NCBI RefSeq assembly: GCF_004138335.1
Contig: NZ_RYFW01000003.1
Coordinates: 434,001-498,000, forward strand
Reading direction: 5' to 3'
Source of the DNA: Peristeroidobacter agariperforans
GTDB lineage: Bacteria; Pseudomonadota; Gammaproteobacteria; Steroidobacterales; Steroidobacteraceae
DNA: 64,000 nucleotides
Shown: positions 51,890 through 59,587 of the stretch, piece by piece
Position numbering within the stretch: the stretch's first letter is position 1
Layout: each line of letters starts with the position of its first letter
Position numbers and translations under genes: made by a program
Notes under the pieces: generated by a model
Databases searched by the model: none
What the model was told of the DNA's origin: nothing
The model's input: the letters and a program-made list of their open reading frames with translations, nothing else

Positions 51890-51894
51890 AACGA

Positions 51895-51924
51895 GGGGCT
51901 TCACAAGTTGCCCTGTGAAGCCCC
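51895..51924. terminator. Bidirectional terminator between OmpA-like and peroxidase-like genes
   Basis: Perfect 11-base arms GGGGCTTCACA (51895-51905) and TGTGAAGCCCC (51914-51924), with an 8-base loop. The site lies between two convergent genes, 6 bases past one stop and 7 bases before the end of the other. It lacks a T-run on either strand but is a strong stem. Confidence 0.75.
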
Positions 51925-51931
51925 GTGGACT

Positions 51932-53209
51932 TCAGTCGTCAAAGCGATGGTGGTGTTCGATCGGCAGCAGGAAGTGATTGAACGTCCACTCGGCCACTCG
52001 GGTGCCCTGCGTACGCCCGGCTTCATCGGCGAAACGGAAGTGGATTCCGAGGTAGACGCGTGCATCTACTGTGTCACGCACGGCATCCGAGAATCGCCTG
52101 TACGTGCGCGTCTTCTGCACCACATTAGGCGCCAGGCTGGTCACTTCGAACGTCATCCAGTCCCGCCCGAAGAACAACGATAGCGTGCGCGTCATCGCGG
52201 CGGTGACGTTGTTCACCCCCGAGGTGTAGTCGGGATAGTTCGGGGTGTTCACCAGCGGCTGCCAATTCACATCACCCGCGGTCTGCGGATTGGGGTCGTT
52301 ATCGCCTTCGCGAATGGCCGTCAGCGGACGCCAGAAGGCGTAATACTTCTTGCTGTCCCAGCCGGCGATGACGGCGTCGGCCGTTGCGACGTTTGCTAGC
52401 GCGAACAGCCGCGCGTTGTCGCCAATCCGATTGATGTGTTTCGCAGAGATCGCCCGGAGCGCGCGATTCCACTGCGCGAAAATGTTGTCGTTATAGAAAT
52501 ACGCCAGATCCGTCTGCTCGGCCGTGCGAGCACTGTTGAGCAGCGCGCCCAGCCTCTTCACTTCGTTGTAGTCCTTCTTGTAACGCTCGCTGGTGAGGGC
52601 CGGCGGCGGATCTGCCCGGAATCGTTTCGGGCCAGTCAGCGTGAAAGGATCGGTTGCGGCCATCCAGGGCGCCACCATCGGCGAGAACGGCGCCGGTGCA
52701 GGCGGCGAGCCTAGAAACGAATCGGTGGGACGCCAGACGCCGAGTTCCGTGCTGCCGACGAACGGCGGCGGCAATGGCTCGGGCGCCAGACGACGTAGCG
52801 GCAGGATGCCGGCAGCGACCTTTTGGCCCACGGTCAGGCCGGGGTCGCCTGTGAGACCATTGTTTGCAAGATAGTTGTAATACGTGGCGTCGAGGGATGC
52901 GGCCTGGGTCGGATACATACCGACGAGCACGTCATGAGCCGCCGCCGCGACCGCCGCCGAGCGGCTGCCTTTAGCGCCAAGAACCTCCATGTGATAAGGC
53001 TCGAAGCGCTTCTCGATGGCTTGAACTGCATCGTGCACGGCGATCTGCACCAGCGCGGTATCCAGCGATCCCACCGGACCGGGCCGGCCGGAGGCCACTG
53101 CGGTGAGGGTGATTTCGTTCCAATCGGTCACTGCGTCGGCGGCCGCCGGGCCGGTCCACGCAGCGAACACACAGGCGCTCACGGCCAGCAGGCCTTGGAT
53201 TGTCTTCAT
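51932..53209 (-). CDS. Vanadium-haloperoxidase-like (PAP2 superfamily) exported protein
   Basis: A 425-residue protein with a signal peptide; the second ATG was chosen because AGGAG lies six bases before it and touches the first. The PAP2/haloperoxidase helices are visible. The first anion-binding motif KKYYAFWRPLTAIR is intact. The second motif, normally PSGH, reads YTSGVNN, so the catalytic His of vanadium chloroperoxidase is Val332. The third motif is present as ARVYLGIHFRFADEAG. Haloperoxidase chemistry is therefore doubtful, and a phosphatase-like or structural role is possible. It is divergent from a BTAD/TPR regulator. Confidence 0.82.
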   Translation of the reverse strand: MKTIQGLLAVSACVFAAWTGPAAADAVTDWNEITLTAVASGRPGPVGSLDTALVQIAVHDAVQAIEKRFEPYHMEVLGAKGSRSAAVAAAAHDVLVGMYPTQAASLDATYYNYLANNGLTGDPGLTVGQKVAAGILPLRRLAPEPLPPPFVGSTELGVWRPTDSFLGSPPAPAPFSPMVAPWMAATDPFTLTGPKRFRADPPPALTSERYKKDYNEVKRLGALLNSARTAEQTDLAYFYNDNIFAQWNRALRAISAKHINRIGDNARLFALANVATADAVIAGWDSKKYYAFWRPLTAIREGDNDPNPQTAGDVNWQPLVNTPNYPDYTSGVNNVTAAMTRTLSLFFGRDWMTFEVTSLAPNVVQKTRTYRRFSDAVRDTVDARVYLGIHFRFADEAGRTQGTRVAEWTFNHFLLPIEHHHRFDD

Positions 53210-53333
53210 TGGCATCTCCTGAAAGTTTGTTTCGAGGTCTCACGTTGGGAAGTGCAGGTGCAGCGGACGTCTTTTCGGCCGTCCTTGGTTTGGAAATTAG
53301 GCTCGGCGCGTGGGAGCGGGCGTGGTAAAAACC

Positions 53334-55343
53334 ATGGGAAATGGAGGCCAGGTGACCGACCATTCCATCCAGGTGCGGCTTTTGGGGCGGCTGACGCTTT
53401 GGAAACAGGGCGCGGAACGCCCGCTGCCGTCTTCGCGCAAGGTACGCGGGTTGCTGGCTCTTCTCACCGTGACGCCTGAAGCGCTGTCTCGCAGTCGGAT
53501 CTGCGAGTTGTTGTTCGATACTTCGACCGATCCGCGCGGTGAGTTGCGATGGTGCCTCAGTAAGCTCAGGGCAGTGCTGGACGACGCATCCAAACAACGC
53601 GTCAATGCTGCCGGCGATAGTGTCTCTCTCGATCTCTCGGATTGTTCTGTCGATACCAACGACATCGCCCGCTTGCGGGCAGGTGGCCTGGAAACATTGG
53701 ATGTTGCTCGGCTGCGTGAGTTGAGCGAGCTGTACGCAGGCGACTTCGCGGCCGGGCTGGAGCTGGATCGCAATCCGGAGTTCGCAAGCTGGCTCGGGGC
53801 GCAACGTCGGCAGTTCCGTGCCGATCACGTCGCAGTGATCGAGCAACTCGTCGATCGCGTCGGCGAGCAAGATCAAAATGACGCCTTCGCGTATCTGGAG
53901 AAATGGCTGCAGCTCGCGCCGTTCGAGCGTCGAGCCCACGAACTGCTGCTACAACGCCTGCTACGCACAGGGCGGGTACGCGAAGGAGAGGAGCACCTCG
54001 CCGCGACGATCCGCCTCTTCGAAGGCGAAGGATTGGATTGGATGCCGATCCGTGAATGCTGGCGGGCGGCGAGGGGACGGACGCCGCAGATCATCGTCCA
54101 GCCGCCCGCGAAAGCCGAATCTCAACGCCCGGTTGCCGAAGCGCTCGGTGCAGCTCAGCGGCGCGCATCGATCTGTGTCATGCCCTTTACCGAGCGCACG
54201 CCGGATGTGACTTCGGGCGGCGGCTTGGCCAATTGGCTCACCGAGGACATCATCACCCGGCTCGCCAAGCTCCGAGTGCTGTTCGTCATCGCGCGTGGCA
54301 GTGTGTTCGCGCTGACCGAAAGGAACGTTCCACCCGACGAAGCGGCGCGCTTGCTCAACGTCGACTACGTCGCCAGCGGGTCAGTGCGTGAACAGCGCGG
54401 ACGTCTCATGGTCATGGCGCAACTGGCTGAGGCATCGACCGGGAGGATCGTCTGGGCCGACGAGTTTAGTTACAGCCGCGATGGCGCCTTCGACGCGCTC
54501 GATGAGATTGGCAATCGCATCGTGCTCTCGCTCGCCGGACAGATCGAGATTGCCGAGCGCAATCGCGCGGTGCTCAAGCCGCCCAACAGTCTCGATGCCT
54601 GGGAAGCCTACCATCGTGGTTTGTGGCACATGTATCGCTTCAACGACGAGGACAATCGCCACGCCGCGCATTATTTTCAGCGCGCCGTGCAGCAGGATCG
54701 TACCTTTGCGCGCGCCCACGCCTGCTTGTCGTTCACTCATTTCCAGAATGTGTTTTTGCACTGGAGCGCGAACCGCGATCGTGAAATCGAGCGTGCCTAC
54801 GCGACGGCCGCCGACAGTATCGTCGCGGACGATCTGGATCCCGCGGCTCACTGGGCGATGGGCAGGGCGCAGTGGCTGCGCGGCCATCTCGACGATTCCG
54901 TGCACGAGCTGCGCCGCTCGGTGTCCTTGAGTCCAAACTTTGCGCTAGGGCACTATACGCTCGGATTCGTCCAGTCTCAGGAAGGCGATGCCCACGCTGC
55001 TATCGAAGCGAGTGACATTTCCCGTCAGCTCAGTCCTTTCGATCCGTTGATGTTCGCCATGCTCGCATCGCGCGCCATCGCGCTGTTTCGCCTGCAGCGA
55101 TATGAAGAGGCGGCGGAGTGGGCCAGCAAAGGGGCGGTGCGCCCGAACGCGCATGTGAACGTACAAGCCGTCGCGGTCAATTGCCTTGCTGCAGCGGGCA
55201 GGGTCGACGAGGCGCGTTCGCTGCTGACGCTGTTACGGCGGAATTCGCCAGACTACTGCGTGGACGACTTCTTCCGGGCGTTTCGTTTCTCACCAGACAC
55301 GCAAGCCTCGTTCCGCAGATCGGCGGCAAGAGTGGGGTTTTGA
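53334..55343 (+). CDS. BTAD/TPR transcriptional regulator with CadC/cyclase-like middle domain
   Basis: A regulator of about 669 residues. The N-terminal winged helix is of OmpR/SARP type (QVRLLGRLTLW, LLFDTSTDPRGELRWCLSKLRAVL), followed by a bacterial transcriptional-activator (BTAD) helical domain to about residue 250. A TolB/FlgO-like module follows (ASICVMPFTERTPDVTSGGGLANWLTEDIITRLAKL, NVDYVASGSVRE), then TPR repeats up to the end. The start is uncertain: ATG 53334 was chosen, GTG 53352 has GGAGG four bases ahead, and GTG 53310 is also in frame. It may control the divergent peroxidase-like gene or be a global regulator. Confidence 0.82.
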   Translation: MGNGGQVTDHSIQVRLLGRLTLWKQGAERPLPSSRKVRGLLALLTVTPEALSRSRICELLFDTSTDPRGELRWCLSKLRAVLDDASKQRVNAAGDSVSLDLSDCSVDTNDIARLRAGGLETLDVARLRELSELYAGDFAAGLELDRNPEFASWLGAQRRQFRADHVAVIEQLVDRVGEQDQNDAFAYLEKWLQLAPFERRAHELLLQRLLRTGRVREGEEHLAATIRLFEGEGLDWMPIRECWRAARGRTPQIIVQPPAKAESQRPVAEALGAAQRRASICVMPFTERTPDVTSGGGLANWLTEDIITRLAKLRVLFVIARGSVFALTERNVPPDEAARLLNVDYVASGSVREQRGRLMVMAQLAEASTGRIVWADEFSYSRDGAFDALDEIGNRIVLSLAGQIEIAERNRAVLKPPNSLDAWEAYHRGLWHMYRFNDEDNRHAAHYFQRAVQQDRTFARAHACLSFTHFQNVFLHWSANRDREIERAYATAADSIVADDLDPAAHWAMGRAQWLRGHLDDSVHELRRSVSLSPNFALGHYTLGFVQSQEGDAHAAIEASDISRQLSPFDPLMFAMLASRAIALFRLQRYEEAAEWASKGAVRPNAHVNVQAVAVNCLAAAGRVDEARSLLTLLRRNSPDYCVDDFFRAFRFSPDTQASFRRSAARVGF

Positions 55344-55404
55344 ACCTGCCACGACGGCATCGAGCAACGGCGCGACGATCGACTGCCTGAACCGAACGCT
55401 CGAG

Positions 55405-56355
55405 CTAGTTCTTTCTAATCGCGATGTCCAGGTACGGTTCAAACCAGGCGCTGTGCATATCTGGTCTGATGCTGCGCAGGAGTTTATGAAAAGCTCGATC
55501 TCGCCTGGAGCGACGAATCGAGTAGCGCCAGCCCTGGTACTCTCGCAAGCCACTTATAACTTCCAGGTTTGGGCCGATCGCCAAGTCAAACTCGTGGAAG
55601 CTCGCGCCGCGGCCTTGGCGAATAAAGTGCTCCATCTTCTCGCAGCGGTCATCCAGGAAGTTTTCCCTGAAGTTCTCGCGATTGCTGAAGCGGGAATACC
55701 GGTACGCCAGTTCGTGCGGCAGCCAGTTGTAGAACGGCATTACCGAGGTGTGATCGTCCAGCCACCACAAGCGGTTCGGTGTCTCGACGACGACCAGGAT
55801 TGCCCCCTTCTTCATCTGCTGCCATACGCTCCGCAGCGCATTGAGGCGCTCTTCGTGCGTCATGTGTTCGACGCAGGCGAAGAAAATCACGAAGTCATAC
55901 GGCTGCGGGAACTCGAAGCCATCGATGTTTCCGTGCAGGATGTCCGCTGTGACTTCATGCGCATTGCAGCGGTCACGAGCAACCGTCAAAGCTCCCTCAT
56001 CTATATCCAGCCCCGTTACGACAGCGCCCTGTTCAGCGAAGGCCACGGTCGACGACCCGGTTCCGCAGCCGACCTCCAGCACGTATGCGTCTTCGAGCGG
56101 CTTGATGCTGTTCAGCCATGGTACGACCGTTTTGCGATCTGTTTGGATGCGCCGGTGAAGATGAGCAGCCAGATCGTTCGCGAAAGCAGCATCGGAATAC
56201 TTGTCCTTCGACCGCCATCCCGTATGGTAGTTTTTCTGGATGGATTCACGAACGAAGGCGATGCCGTCCGCGGTCAGCATGGAGTGCCGTTGCTTCAGGT
56301 CGGTCGGCACCGGATACAGAATGCGGCTGGTAAAATCCTTGACTCCTGTTTTCAT
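55405..56355 (-). CDS. Class I SAM-dependent methyltransferase
   Basis: A 316-residue enzyme. SAM motif I is VLEVGCGTGSSTVAFAEQG, with an acidic motif II end (GLDIDEGAL). A PYDFVIFFACVEHM motif and an LVVVETPNRLWWLDDHTS segment are also present. The N-terminal ~90 residues and a C-terminal region rich in Arg and aromatic residues could contact a lipid or glycan substrate, as in UbiG-like or cell-envelope methyltransferases. It is not clearly linked to the tRNA-Sec gene 119 bases away. The substrate is unknown. Confidence 0.85.
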   Translation of the reverse strand: MKTGVKDFTSRILYPVPTDLKQRHSMLTADGIAFVRESIQKNYHTGWRSKDKYSDAAFANDLAAHLHRRIQTDRKTVVPWLNSIKPLEDAYVLEVGCGTGSSTVAFAEQGAVVTGLDIDEGALTVARDRCNAHEVTADILHGNIDGFEFPQPYDFVIFFACVEHMTHEERLNALRSVWQQMKKGAILVVVETPNRLWWLDDHTSVMPFYNWLPHELAYRYSRFSNRENFRENFLDDRCEKMEHFIRQGRGASFHEFDLAIGPNLEVISGLREYQGWRYSIRRSRRDRAFHKLLRSIRPDMHSAWFEPYLDIAIRKN

Positions 56356-56473
56356 TCTTCATCTCCAGGAACCCCCGTTCACTCTACATCCGTCTGGCGA
56401 CAATCTCGTTGTGTTTCTTACCTACTTTGGTGATGGGCCGGGTCCATGGTGCGGCGCAGATAGCGAGGGTCGG

Positions 56474-56564
56474 CGGAAGAGGCAGGAGTCGAACCTACCG
56501 AAGATGCATGGCACCTCCCTCCGGGTTTGAAGTCCGGGCACCCCGCCGGGGATGTTTCTCTTCC
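56474..56564 (-). tRNA. selC: tRNA-Sec (anticodon UCA)
   Basis: A 91-base gene for the UGA-reading selenocysteine tRNA. The anticodon UCA (plus-strand TGA at 56528-56530) sits in loop CUUCAAA, as in Escherichia coli selC. The acceptor GGAAGAG pairs with CTCTTCC, the T arm is GTAGG/CCTGC around TTCGACT, the D arm has six pairs with a 4-base loop, and the long extra arm has GGTGC/GCATC. CCA is not encoded (CCG follows the discriminator G). The last anticodon-stem pair is A-C, and the eighth acceptor pair is A-C. It lies 5 bases downstream of the decayed selB, transcribed in the same direction. Confidence 0.9.
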
Positions 56565-56568
56565 AGGG

Positions 56569-57047
56569 CTATGGTGCCGTCGATCGAACGGGCCTGTCCA
56601 GCGAGCGTTGGTAGGGCGAGGCAGGGCCGACGATAAGAAAATAATCCGGGCGCACCTTGCGTCGATCGCCGTCGCGACGGGTCACGCCGATGCTGTCGAG
56701 GAACTCGAGGATGCGAATCACCTGATTGCGGCCGATGCCGGTCGCGTCTCGATGTTGGCAGCGGTAAAGCCTGTGCCGCCAACTTCATAACCGGGCAGCT
56801 TCACGACCGCGCCGCTCGTTTCGATCACGTGCTGCTCGGTGAGTTGCTCTTGCGGCATCACTCCGTCATCGGCCGCTACCAATCCTCGGGCCCGCATCTG
56901 GTTGCCAGCAGGCAAAGCCGAGGCCGATGGGAATGCCCCGGGGGCGCGCTCTTCCGGCAGACGGTCGGTCGCTACGCCCGTGAGCGCACGGATGAGCGAG
57001 GTCAGTATGACGAGGCGTTGTCGGCGTTACCTAAGGCCAACGATATG
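56569..57047 (-). pseudogene. selB: Decayed selB (selenocysteine-specific elongation factor) relic
   Basis: About 160 codons in place of the ~620 of a normal SelB. Recognisable pieces appear in the right order on the minus strand in different frames. They are LIRALTGVATDRLPEER of the G domain near 56946-56999; after a one-base shift, GIPIGLGFA near 56913-56939; then LVAADDGVMPQ near 56844-56880. Next come GAVVKLPGYEV of a C-terminal winged helix and, in another frame, RDATGIGRNQVIRILEFLD and GVTRRDGDRRKV near 56640-56750, the final winged helix. The P-loop GHVDHGK is destroyed by a stop (57027-57029), and most of domains I-IV is missing. It cannot make a working SelB. Confidence 0.85.
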
Positions 57048-57095
57048 ATAGGCAGTGCGTGCTAGGCTACAGTGAGGCATCGCGGATTCGCATCC

Positions 57096-58502
57096 ATGGC
57101 AACGCAGCCTACCCGTCCTTTTCCTTCCGTCGATCGGATCGCGCGTTTCGCGGCCGTTGCAGGCCTGTGCGAGACATATGGGCGCAGCGCCGTGATCGAT
57201 GCGATCAGAGCCGTGCTCGACGCGCATCGCGAGCGCCTGGGTGAGCGGGATTATTTGTCGCCAACGGATAGTGAATTGTCGCGTCAGATCGCCGACCGCC
57301 TGAAAGAACGCGCGACGCCGCGACTGCGTCGAGTATTTAATCTGACGGGCACGGTGCTGCACACGAACCTGGGACGCACTCAGCTCTCGTCGCGAGCCAT
57401 CGAGCATGCCTCCATGGCCATGCGCGAGGCGTGCAATTTCGAGTTCGATCTCGACAGCGGCGGGCGAGGAGAGCGCGACAACCTGGTCGAGGACCTTCTC
57501 ATCGAGCTGACCGGGGCGGAAGCAGCCACGGTCGTGAACAACAATGCGGCCGCCGTGCTGCTCGTTCTTGCGACGTTAGCCCACAAGCGCGAAGTCGTTT
57601 TGTCTCGTGGCGAGTTGATCGAGATCGGCGGCGCCTTCCGGATTCCCGACGTGATGCGCAGCGCGAACACCCGATTAATCGAAGTCGGCACGACGAATCG
57701 CACGCACCCCGCTGACTACGAGCGTGCGATCGGTCCCAAGACCGCCGCGCTCATGAAAGTGCACTTGAGCAACTACAAGATCAGTGGATTCGTGGCTCAT
57801 GTGCCGGAGCCGGAAGTCTCTCGAATCGCGCACGAGCATCAGTTGCCGCTGATCGTCGACTTGGGCGCCGGCAGTTTTATCGATCTCGCCGCGTATGGTT
57901 TGCCCAAGGAACCCGTGGTGCGAGAAACGATTGCGAGCGGCGCCGACGTTGTCACGTTCAGCGGCGACAAATTGCTCGGCGGGCCGCAGGCAGGGTTGAT
58001 CGTGGGCAAGAAGGCATTGATCGACAAGATCAAGCGTCATCCGCTGAAGCGGGCGCTGCGCGTGTCGAAGCCCGTGCTCGCGGCCCTCGAAGGAACATTG
58101 CTGGCGTATCGCACGCCCGATTTGCTGATGCAGGAACTGCCGACGTTGCGATTGTTGACGCGACCGCTCGCTGACATCGAAGCGCTTGCCAACCGATTGC
58201 GGCCGCTCGTGTCCGCCGCGCTGGGTGCGCAATGGCAGGTGAAGGTGACGCCGGTGTCAAGTGAGGTCGGCAGCGGCTCGTTGCCGGTCGAAATCATTCC
58301 GAGCATGGCGCTGACGTGTCGGCCGACGAGCGCGAAGGCGGGCTCGGCGCTGAAACGTCTGGCGGCCGAGTTCCGTCGTTTGCCGGTGCCTGTGATCGGG
58401 CGCATTGCCGATGACGCTCTGGTGCTGGATTTGCGCTGTCTGGAAGACGAGCGAGCGTTCATTGCTCAGCTCGATCGGCTTGCCGTGAAGGGGTCGTCAT
58501 GA
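57096..58502 (+). CDS. selA: L-seryl-tRNA(Sec) selenium transferase
   Basis: A 468-residue PLP enzyme that converts Ser-tRNA(Sec) to Sec-tRNA(Sec) with selenophosphate. The family start PSVDRIARF, the RVFNLTGTVLHTNLGR region, NNNAAAVLLVLATLA and the PLP Lys292 in TFSGDKLLGGPQAG are all intact. Length matches other bacterial SelA (about 460). The ATG at 57096 gives the usual short N-terminus; GTG at 57072 is an alternative with AGG five bases upstream. It is divergent from the decayed selB and overlaps selD by 4 bases. Confidence 0.95.
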   Translation: MATQPTRPFPSVDRIARFAAVAGLCETYGRSAVIDAIRAVLDAHRERLGERDYLSPTDSELSRQIADRLKERATPRLRRVFNLTGTVLHTNLGRTQLSSRAIEHASMAMREACNFEFDLDSGGRGERDNLVEDLLIELTGAEAATVVNNNAAAVLLVLATLAHKREVVLSRGELIEIGGAFRIPDVMRSANTRLIEVGTTNRTHPADYERAIGPKTAALMKVHLSNYKISGFVAHVPEPEVSRIAHEHQLPLIVDLGAGSFIDLAAYGLPKEPVVRETIASGADVVTFSGDKLLGGPQAGLIVGKKALIDKIKRHPLKRALRVSKPVLAALEGTLLAYRTPDLLMQELPTLRLLTRPLADIEALANRLRPLVSAALGAQWQVKVTPVSSEVGSGSLPVEIIPSMALTCRPTSAKAGSALKRLAAEFRRLPVPVIGRIADDALVLDLRCLEDERAFIAQLDRLAVKGSS

Positions 58503-59587
58503 GTCCAACCGACATATCCGTGGAGCCGCGGCTCAGCTCTTTGTCTCACGGTGGCGGCTGCGGCTGCAAGATCGCCCCCGGCCTGCTGTCGCAGATTCTT
58601 GAAGGCACATCGGCGCTGCCGGTTCCGTCGCAGCTGATGGTCGGCATCGAAACATCCGACGATGCCGCCGTGTATCGGCTCAACGACCAGCAGGCGCTGA
58701 TCGCGACCACCGACTTCTTCATGCCGATCGTCGACGATCCTCACGACTTCGGCCGCATCGCTGCCACCAATGCGATCAGCGATGTCTATGCGATGGGCGG
58801 GCAGCCGATCATGGCGCTTGCCATCGTGGGTATGCCGATCAATGTGCTGTCGCCGGCAACGATCGGGCGAATCCTCGAAGGCGGCGCGGCGGTTTGTCGG
58901 GCGGCCGGCATTCCGATTGCGGGCGGACACAGCATCGATTCCGTCGAGCCGATTTATGGATTGGTGGTCATGGGACTCGCTCATCCCAGCCGCATCAAAC
59001 GAAACGCCGACGCACAGTCGGGCGATGCGCTGGTGCTGGGCAAGCCGCTGGGCGTGGGTGTGCTGTCGGCTGCCCTCAAGAAGGGCGCGCTGGATGCGGC
59101 GGGCTACGAGCGGATGATGGCGACCACGACAAAGTTGAACACCGCCGGTCCCGAACTTGCGGCCCTTTCGGGCGTGCACGCGCTAACTGACGTCACGGGC
59201 TTTGGCCTTGCCGGCCACGCGCTCGAGTTGGCGCGCGGCGCGCGATGTGACTTACAAATCGAGTGGTCGAGTGTTCCGTTGTTGAGCGGCGTTCGAGCGC
59301 TGGCGGCGCAAGGATTCGTGACGGGGGCGTCGGGTCGCAATTGGTCCGGTTACGGCGCTGAAGTGACTTTGCCGCCGACGTTTGCGGCCGAAGACAAAGC
59401 TCTGCTCAGCGATCCGCAAACCAGCGGTGGGCTCTTGGTATCGTGCTCACCGTCGTCCCTCGATGAAGTCCTCGCAGTGTTCCGGCGTCACGGCTTTGAG
59501 CATGCTGCCAGGATCGGCTCGGTGACCGCGCGAAACAACAAGCCCACTTTGGCGGTGAGCTTCACGCCACCAGCCGGATCGGCTTGA
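58499..59587 (+). CDS. selD: Selenophosphate synthetase
   Basis: A 362-residue AIR-synthase-fold enzyme that makes selenophosphate from selenide and ATP. The N-terminal motif GGGCGCKIAPGLL has Cys21, Cys23 and Lys24, equivalent to the E. coli Cys17 motif; no selenocysteine codon is used there. DDAAVYRL, GGQPIMALAIVGMP, IAGGHSIDS and DVTGFGLAGHALELARGA complete the fold. It is coupled to selA by an ATGA overlap. Selenophosphate can also feed tRNA 2-selenouridine (SelU), so it may be needed without SelB. Its end overlaps the M48 gene by 26 bases. Confidence 0.95.
   Translation: MSPTDISVEPRLSSLSHGGGCGCKIAPGLLSQILEGTSALPVPSQLMVGIETSDDAAVYRLNDQQALIATTDFFMPIVDDPHDFGRIAATNAISDVYAMGGQPIMALAIVGMPINVLSPATIGRILEGGAAVCRAAGIPIAGGHSIDSVEPIYGLVVMGLAHPSRIKRNADAQSGDALVLGKPLGVGVLSAALKKGALDAAGYERMMATTTKLNTAGPELAALSGVHALTDVTGFGLAGHALELARGARCDLQIEWSSVPLLSGVRALAAQGFVTGASGRNWSGYGAEVTLPPTFAAEDKALLSDPQTSGGLLVSCSPSSLDEVLAVFRRHGFEHAARIGSVTARNNKPTLAVSFTPPAGSA

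Follow-up and report, generated by a model that had tools for sequence, protein, structure and literature searches.

Selenocysteine (Sec) genes are thought to travel as a set comprising selA, selB, selC and a selenoprotein gene (Zhang et al. 2006, PMC1794560), and tRNA-Sec genes with a 12-bp stem are described as members, few exceptions aside, of a selABC operon with selA and selB close by (Santesmasses et al. 2017, PMC5330540). Frameshifted selB genes have been reported in Yersinia pestis CO92 and Mediaevalis, where selA, selC and selD are present (Romero et al. 2005, PMC1273633). Here we describe a 64,000-nucleotide stretch of the Peristeroidobacter agariperforans genome (the window; GCF_004138335.1, contig NZ_RYFW01000003.1, positions 434,001 to 498,000), in which a decayed selB lies between the tRNA-Sec gene selC and selA. 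Comparison with two related species, the congeneric genome G101 and P. soli JW-3, suggests, with a probability that we put at roughly 0.8, that this remnant is the residue of a redundant selB and that a SelB of a different lineage (lineage A), encoded in a formate dehydrogenase operon, now serves the lineage-B tRNA-Sec of the window.

A decayed selB beside selC and an intact SelB elsewhere in the genome

The selB remnant consists of four stretches on the selC strand that match the intact selB occupying the same place in G101 (C3:427937-429817, both flanks being common to the window and G101), with their order kept and their frames differing, as the preliminary description of the window had reported. 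Retained are nt 40-154, 242-272, 1431-1493 and 1744-1905 (less one) of the G101 gene, with small indels, so that 370 of 1905 nt remain and the loss amounts to about 510 of 635 codons. That much of selB had been lost was recognized at the outset; the P-loop, thought then to be broken, is deleted together with the start codon, and the missing portion is larger than the ~450 codons first estimated. The C-terminal piece is 93% identical to the G101 protein over 45 aa (E = 7e-22), far above chance. A SelB (TIGR00475) is defined by a P-loop-bearing G domain, domains 2-3 and winged helices in a single frame, a combination that the remnant lacks. The copy is disabled whereas closely related G101 has the orthologue intact, and the gene next to selC is therefore, on its sequence, a pseudogene and a genuine dead leftover. 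Changes between the remnant and G101 numbered 8, 5 and 31 at codon positions 1, 2 and 3, and the ratio of nonsynonymous to synonymous substitution rates (dN/dS) was 0.12, over the alignable pieces only.

The G101 locus carries selC and intact selB on the minus strand and selA-selD on the plus strand, its SelA being 92% identical to that of the window, and P. soli (NZ_ML142848.1) has the same selC-remnant-selA-selD arrangement as the window. In the P. soli remnant, codons 1-56 and about 551-635 survive and the frame shifts near the P-loop, whereas the window remnant is without codons 1-13 and has codons 81-91 and 477-498, both absent in P. soli. Changes at codon positions 1, 2 and 3 of the P. 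soli remnant numbered 7, 13 and 53 (dN/dS 0.11, alignable pieces only), counts that include a blastn piece at G101 nt 983-1013; this piece was rejected as a chance match, its query being contained in the query of the 1652-1905 piece, and was dropped in a recount. Because the stretches kept differ, the G101 gene is intact, and G101 is the sister of the window species in both the SelA tree (99/95; G005 SelA, a fragment, and Cupriavidus SelA, a broken open reading frame, were left out) and the operon SelB tree (100/99), the simplest account of the sequences is that the selC-side selB was lost twice, once in the window species and once in P. soli. Decay shared with P. soli was ruled out by the differing stretches and the intact G101 gene, and a recent selB duplication was ruled out by the two intact SelBs of G101, which are 41% identical to each other and come from separate lineages. 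Both losses look recent, judging from the remnants, which still bear the mark of a coding gene.

The preliminary description had itself named a second selB elsewhere in the genome as the finding that would speak against a loss of Sec decoding. Of the three readings that it offered (Sec decoding recently lost, another selB in the genome, or selenium put to a different use), the second proved right. Searching the genome's contigs with TIGR00475 gave 12 matches, among them a full-length SelB with no internal stop (G000:C15:64052-65929) that scored ~446 bits (445.8-446.1) against a curated cut-off of 242.25; the window remnant scored 21 bits, and ten further matches, identified by score alone, fell below the cut-off, as other translation GTPases would. 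The C15 SelB has GTP_EFTU, D2, SelB beta-barrel, SelB-wing_2, SelB_WH_2nd and SelB-wing_3 domains and is predicted to deliver Sec-tRNA to UGA. It stands last in the order fdhG, fdhH, fdhI, fdhE, selB (family matches), its start overlapping the fdhE stop as ATGA in this genome, in G101 and, by eye, in P. soli, whose intact operon SelB behind fdhE scored 456.4 bits. Searches showed no tRNA gene and no selA in the vicinity of the operon selB. The preliminary description had also proposed to look for Sec-containing genes. The fdhG of this operon encodes the alpha subunit of formate dehydrogenase N (TIGR01553, 1515.4 bits) and has one in-frame TGA at residue 197 of 1033, with the next stop at 1034; the TGA falls in an Rfam SECIS_3 (selenocysteine insertion sequence) element scoring 82.6 bits. 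The 48 nt from this TGA differed by at most two bases across the seven family genomes read. Divergent napA and a NapC/NirT-type cytochrome gene adjoin the operon (L018 4734-8424), and these neighbours would fit formate-to-nitrate respiration.

The occurrence of fdhG was followed in ten genomes, six with Sec genes (this genome, P. soli, G101, G103, G094 and G033) and four selected from the ten congeners without selA. It was present as a single copy with one internal TGA in all six Sec genomes (the G103 copy is cut by a contig end), and no match was found at E 1e-80 in the four selA-less congeners searched; a TAG counted by the search in three of the Sec genomes was the ordinary gene end. SelA itself exceeded the cut-off in 3 of 100 family genomes, among which G005 also has a fragment at a contig end and G096 gave a weak match, and it was present in 4 of the 14 genomes of the genus. 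The only selenoprotein known here is FdhG, no search for others having been made.

As had been claimed from the window alone, selC, selA and selD are intact: selC was called by ARAGORN and RF01852, and SelA and SelD matched their equivalog models (TIGR00474 and TIGR00476) over their whole length. Between the window genome and G101, dN/dS was 0.13 for selA, 0.14 for selD, 0.15 for the operon selB and 0.09 for fdhG, and the same four genes gave 0.08-0.13 against P. soli, values by which all four are under purifying selection. Selenocysteine use thus looks alive in this species, and we see no sign here of loss of the trait.

Ancestry of SelB and tRNA-Sec

The operon SelB of this genome and the selC-side SelB of G101 are 40% identical. 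In a SelB tree of 35 rows, from which both remnants were left out, the operon SelBs of the three species grouped with that of a congener, G103, and that of G005, from the same family (100/99), and this group of five sat in a 13-row lineage-A clade with Burkholderia, Caballeronia and Cupriavidus (100/100). The G101 SelB encoded beside selC fell outside that clade and grouped with eight others (99/94); the resulting nine-row clade includes every one of the four SelBs that have a 12-bp selC as partner. Approximately unbiased (AU) tests rejected placement of the G101 selC-side SelB in the 13-row clade (p = 0.007) or with the five SelBs (p = 5e-6), p values that are generous since the groups were chosen after viewing the tree. 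In the A-type relatives examined, fdhE lay immediately before selA in 10 of 10, selB followed selA in nine (the G005 contig ends inside selA), and selC lay downstream of selB in all nine with a selC found in the stretch. The operon of the three species has no selA between fdhE and selB, and no selC after selB.

The window selC scored 63 bits with RF01852 (gathering threshold 47), carries the UCA anticodon, has a G after the acceptor strand (G73), and is the only match above the cut-off genome-wide that ARAGORN calls tRNA-Sec, the other being a tRNA-Ser. Its acceptor/T-stem has 12 bp (7/5) and not the 13 bp (8/5) of the canonical bacterial form. Stem lengths were examined in 27 tRNA-Sec, the 5' strand of the Sinorhizobium tRNA (3' strand 13 nt) being left unpaired in the count; six had a 12-bp stem (window, P. 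soli, G101, G196, G418 and OFTM202), and the nine selCs linked to A-type SelBs all had 13 bp. The tRNA tree, built from 25 of the 27 (G314 and G357 were left out), split accordingly, the selCs of the three species grouping with those of G196, G418 and OFTM202 (97/100) because these six have the 12-bp stem and the nine A-type selCs the 13-bp stem. Forcing the three species' selCs together with the nine A-type selCs was rejected (AU p = 0.019), the A-type set having been taken from the SelB tree and the tRNA identities having been seen beforehand; the nine are not exclusive in the best tRNA tree, where P. putida joins them, which is no conflict (p = 0.37).

Weighing the explanations

Starting from what can be read directly in the genomes, namely the two SelBs and their divergence, the differing lesions, the single selC found, the UGA with its SECIS and the purifying selection, we propose that two Sec sets met in an ancestor common to the three species, which thereafter had two SelBs. 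In the lineage-B set, selB and selC would have formed a unit opposed to selA-selD, the tRNA-Sec here being of the 12-bp type; the lineage-A set would have been an fdhGHIE-selB operon, whose kin use a 13-bp tRNA-Sec and whose own selA and selC, once part of the fdh operon, would since have been lost. Because one SelB suffices for one selenoprotein, the lineage-B selB would have decayed on two occasions, once in this species and once in P. soli, whereas G101 kept both copies. Today Sec-tRNA would be formed by SelD and SelA on the tRNA of lineage B and carried by the lineage-A SelB to the fdhG UGA at the SECIS hairpin; this SelB may have been retained because its position allows co-expression with fdhG, its sole known client. 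The more specific statement, that Sec is decoded by a re-paired hybrid in which a SelB of the 13-bp lineage reads a 12-bp tRNA-Sec whose own SelB decayed twice independently, we hold at somewhat better than even odds. Since the long acceptor stem is described as the main determinant of SelB binding in bacteria (PMC7609411), the pairing of a 13-bp-lineage SelB with a 12-bp tRNA is a real question. If the hybrid operates, SelB would be kept for its link to the client gene (operon and SECIS), and the tRNA side would be interchangeable across structural classes of tRNA-Sec.

Several observations weigh against this proposal. Four members of the selC-side SelB clade (G465, G370, G190 and G314) have a 13-bp selC, so that the match between stem class and SelB lineage is one-sided, and the tRNA tree was built on 93 columns. 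The ancestry of SelA does not discriminate: AU tests rejected neither its grouping with A-type SelAs (p = 0.52; with G103 alone, p = 0.33) nor its grouping with 12-bp kin (p = 0.07 and 0.09). The operon SelB bore no trace of adaptation to a 12-bp tRNA: the three species showed four specific changes at otherwise fixed sites, none of which was shared with at least two of the four 12-bp SelBs. A search for traces of selA or selC next to the operon selB gave only matches of E 0.07 or worse, and no relic was recognized there; the fdhG SECIS hairpin alone had a folding energy no better than shuffles (z = 0.35).

The alternative that survives best, though we consider it less likely than not, is that the remnant is still useful, the selB ends being kept as a leader or promoter region of selC and the interior trimmed by deletion. 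In both species the interior is mostly gone and pieces near both ends are kept; the G101 selB ends 4 nt before selC, and an 11-nt block upstream of selB is invariant in all three species and could possibly, as a lead only, belong to a selB-selC promoter. Against this, consensus promoter scans found no sigma-70-like site, and survival of the ends may be chance. A leader role is compatible with the remnant being a redundant selB's residue.

That a canonical 13-bp selC for the operon SelB is hidden in assembly gaps, the lineages then not being truly re-paired, is unlikely. The assemblies are drafts (17 contigs and 97.9% completeness for this genome, ~30 contigs for G101), and in G103, whose assembly is 75% complete, no selC was found although selA and selB are present; such a gene would, however, have to be missing in three genomes, and none was found after selB in these species, the place where all nine A-type relatives have theirs.

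A still poorer account is the one offered in the preliminary description, of Sec decoding recently lost, a selenoproteome caught in mid-loss, and selA, selC and selD as fossils in waiting. The selC-side selB is indeed dead and Y. pestis CO92 is a printed precedent for such a state (PMC1273633), but the full-length C15 SelB, the UGA-containing fdhG with its SECIS, and dN/dS of 0.09-0.15 make it very improbable; loss of the factor ahead of the tRNA, called rare there, has its precedent in the same Yersinia report. Assembly or sequencing error can be dismissed almost entirely, the gaps (~30, 87, 1158 and 250 nt, plus small indels) being unlike base-call slips and the separately assembled P. soli having its own broken selB at the same place.

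Features of the locus and comparison with described systems

Table 1. Sec-related features of the window (window coordinates)
Feature	Position	Strand	Evidence or remark
selC, tRNA-Sec (UCA)	56472..56564	-	ARAGORN and Rfam RF01852; 12-bp acceptor/T-stem (7/5)
selB remnant piece 4, codons 582-635 (C-terminal winged helix)	56626..56786	-	one base fewer than G101
selB remnant piece 3, codons 477-498	56791..56853	-	alignment to G101 selB
selB remnant piece 2, codons 81-91 (VAADDGVMPQ)	56851..56881	-	alignment to G101 selB
selB remnant piece 1, codons 14-51, directly past the lost P-loop	56886..57002	-	two bases more than G101
11-nt block CTATCATATCG upstream of selB	57041..57051	-	invariant in window, G101 and P. 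soli
selA, full length, single genome copy	57096..58502	+	TIGR00474, 572.8 bits
selD, full length	58499..59587	+	TIGR00476, 427.6 bits

The selD gene is the one copy above the TIGR00476 cut-off genome-wide, two weak matches falling below it, and its end shares 26 nt with that of a convergent M48-peptidase-like open reading frame (window 59562-59587). On the other side, ~4.5 kb from the left flank shared with G101 to selC (window 51894-56471) were unmatched in the G101 stretch, where the corresponding interval is 3625-3760 of L077. This segment stops at the selC 3' end and encodes a methyltransferase and a TPR protein that weakly matches BTAD; a second copy of the selC 3' end, the mark of an integration, was not found in the window.

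Sec genes were also noticed in other records. On the Pseudomonas putida WBC-3 plasmid NZ_CP142112.1 (L120, 46 kb, typed conjugative), fdnG-fdxH-gamma-fdhE-selA-selB-selC lies near a Tn3-family transposase, and this cassette is a mobile Sec trait, on the move. The Cupriavidus sp. EM10 plasmid p352-1 (L118) has selA and selB each split into two BLAST pieces with shortened open reading frames, which are either pseudogenes or sequencing errors in the record. Methylobacterium radiotolerans pNYY1_1 (L126) has an annotated selB near an IS3 transposase, with neither selA nor tRNA-Sec found within 5 kb.

The separate elements of this picture are already in print: selB pseudogenes (PMC1273633), double Sec operons and 12-bp tRNA-Sec (PMC5330540), second SelBs (PMC7609411) and transfer of the cassette (PMC1794560). 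We found no report in the open-licence literature of a twofold loss of one of two distant SelBs that leaves a cross-lineage SelB/tRNA-Sec pair. The clade looks like a meeting of two Sec sets in which one redundant SelB was dropped twice and the survivors formed a hybrid; with both SelBs in G101 but a single one in P. soli and in this strain, the three form a natural series on discrimination between 12-bp and 13-bp tRNAs and on which factor survives.

The likeness to Y. pestis CO92 and Mediaevalis lies in the broken selB and the remaining selA, selC and selD; the authors of that report infer a recent loss of Sec decoding there, whereas this genome has a further SelB, distantly related and intact (PMC1273633), and a selB pseudogene next to selC is thus not evidence of lost Sec decoding. 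The fdo/fdnGHI-fdhE-selA-selB-selC cassette described for Proteobacteria resembles our operon in its SelB, its FdhG with UGA and SECIS and the adjoining fdhE, but the operon of this clade has selB without selA and selC, which sit at another locus (Zhang et al. 2006, PMC1794560; Mukai 2021, PMC8124441). A second SelB in one genome is likewise described for Syntrophobacterales and Desulfobacterales, as selB* beside the tRNA-Cys gene selC* (Mukai et al. 2017, via PMC7609411); there the additional SelB is believed to work with a second tRNA, whereas one tRNA-Sec and one selenoprotein are known here. Photobacterium profundum 3TCK has two complete Sec operons, and G101 likewise has two SelBs, but in G101 only selB is found twice, and both of its relatives retain one of the two copies merely as a remnant (PMC5330540). 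Finally, the 12-bp stem (7/5) of the window selC is a form described in the same source (PMC5330540), with the difference that the selB beside it is dead and the live SelB comes from a lineage with 13-bp partners.

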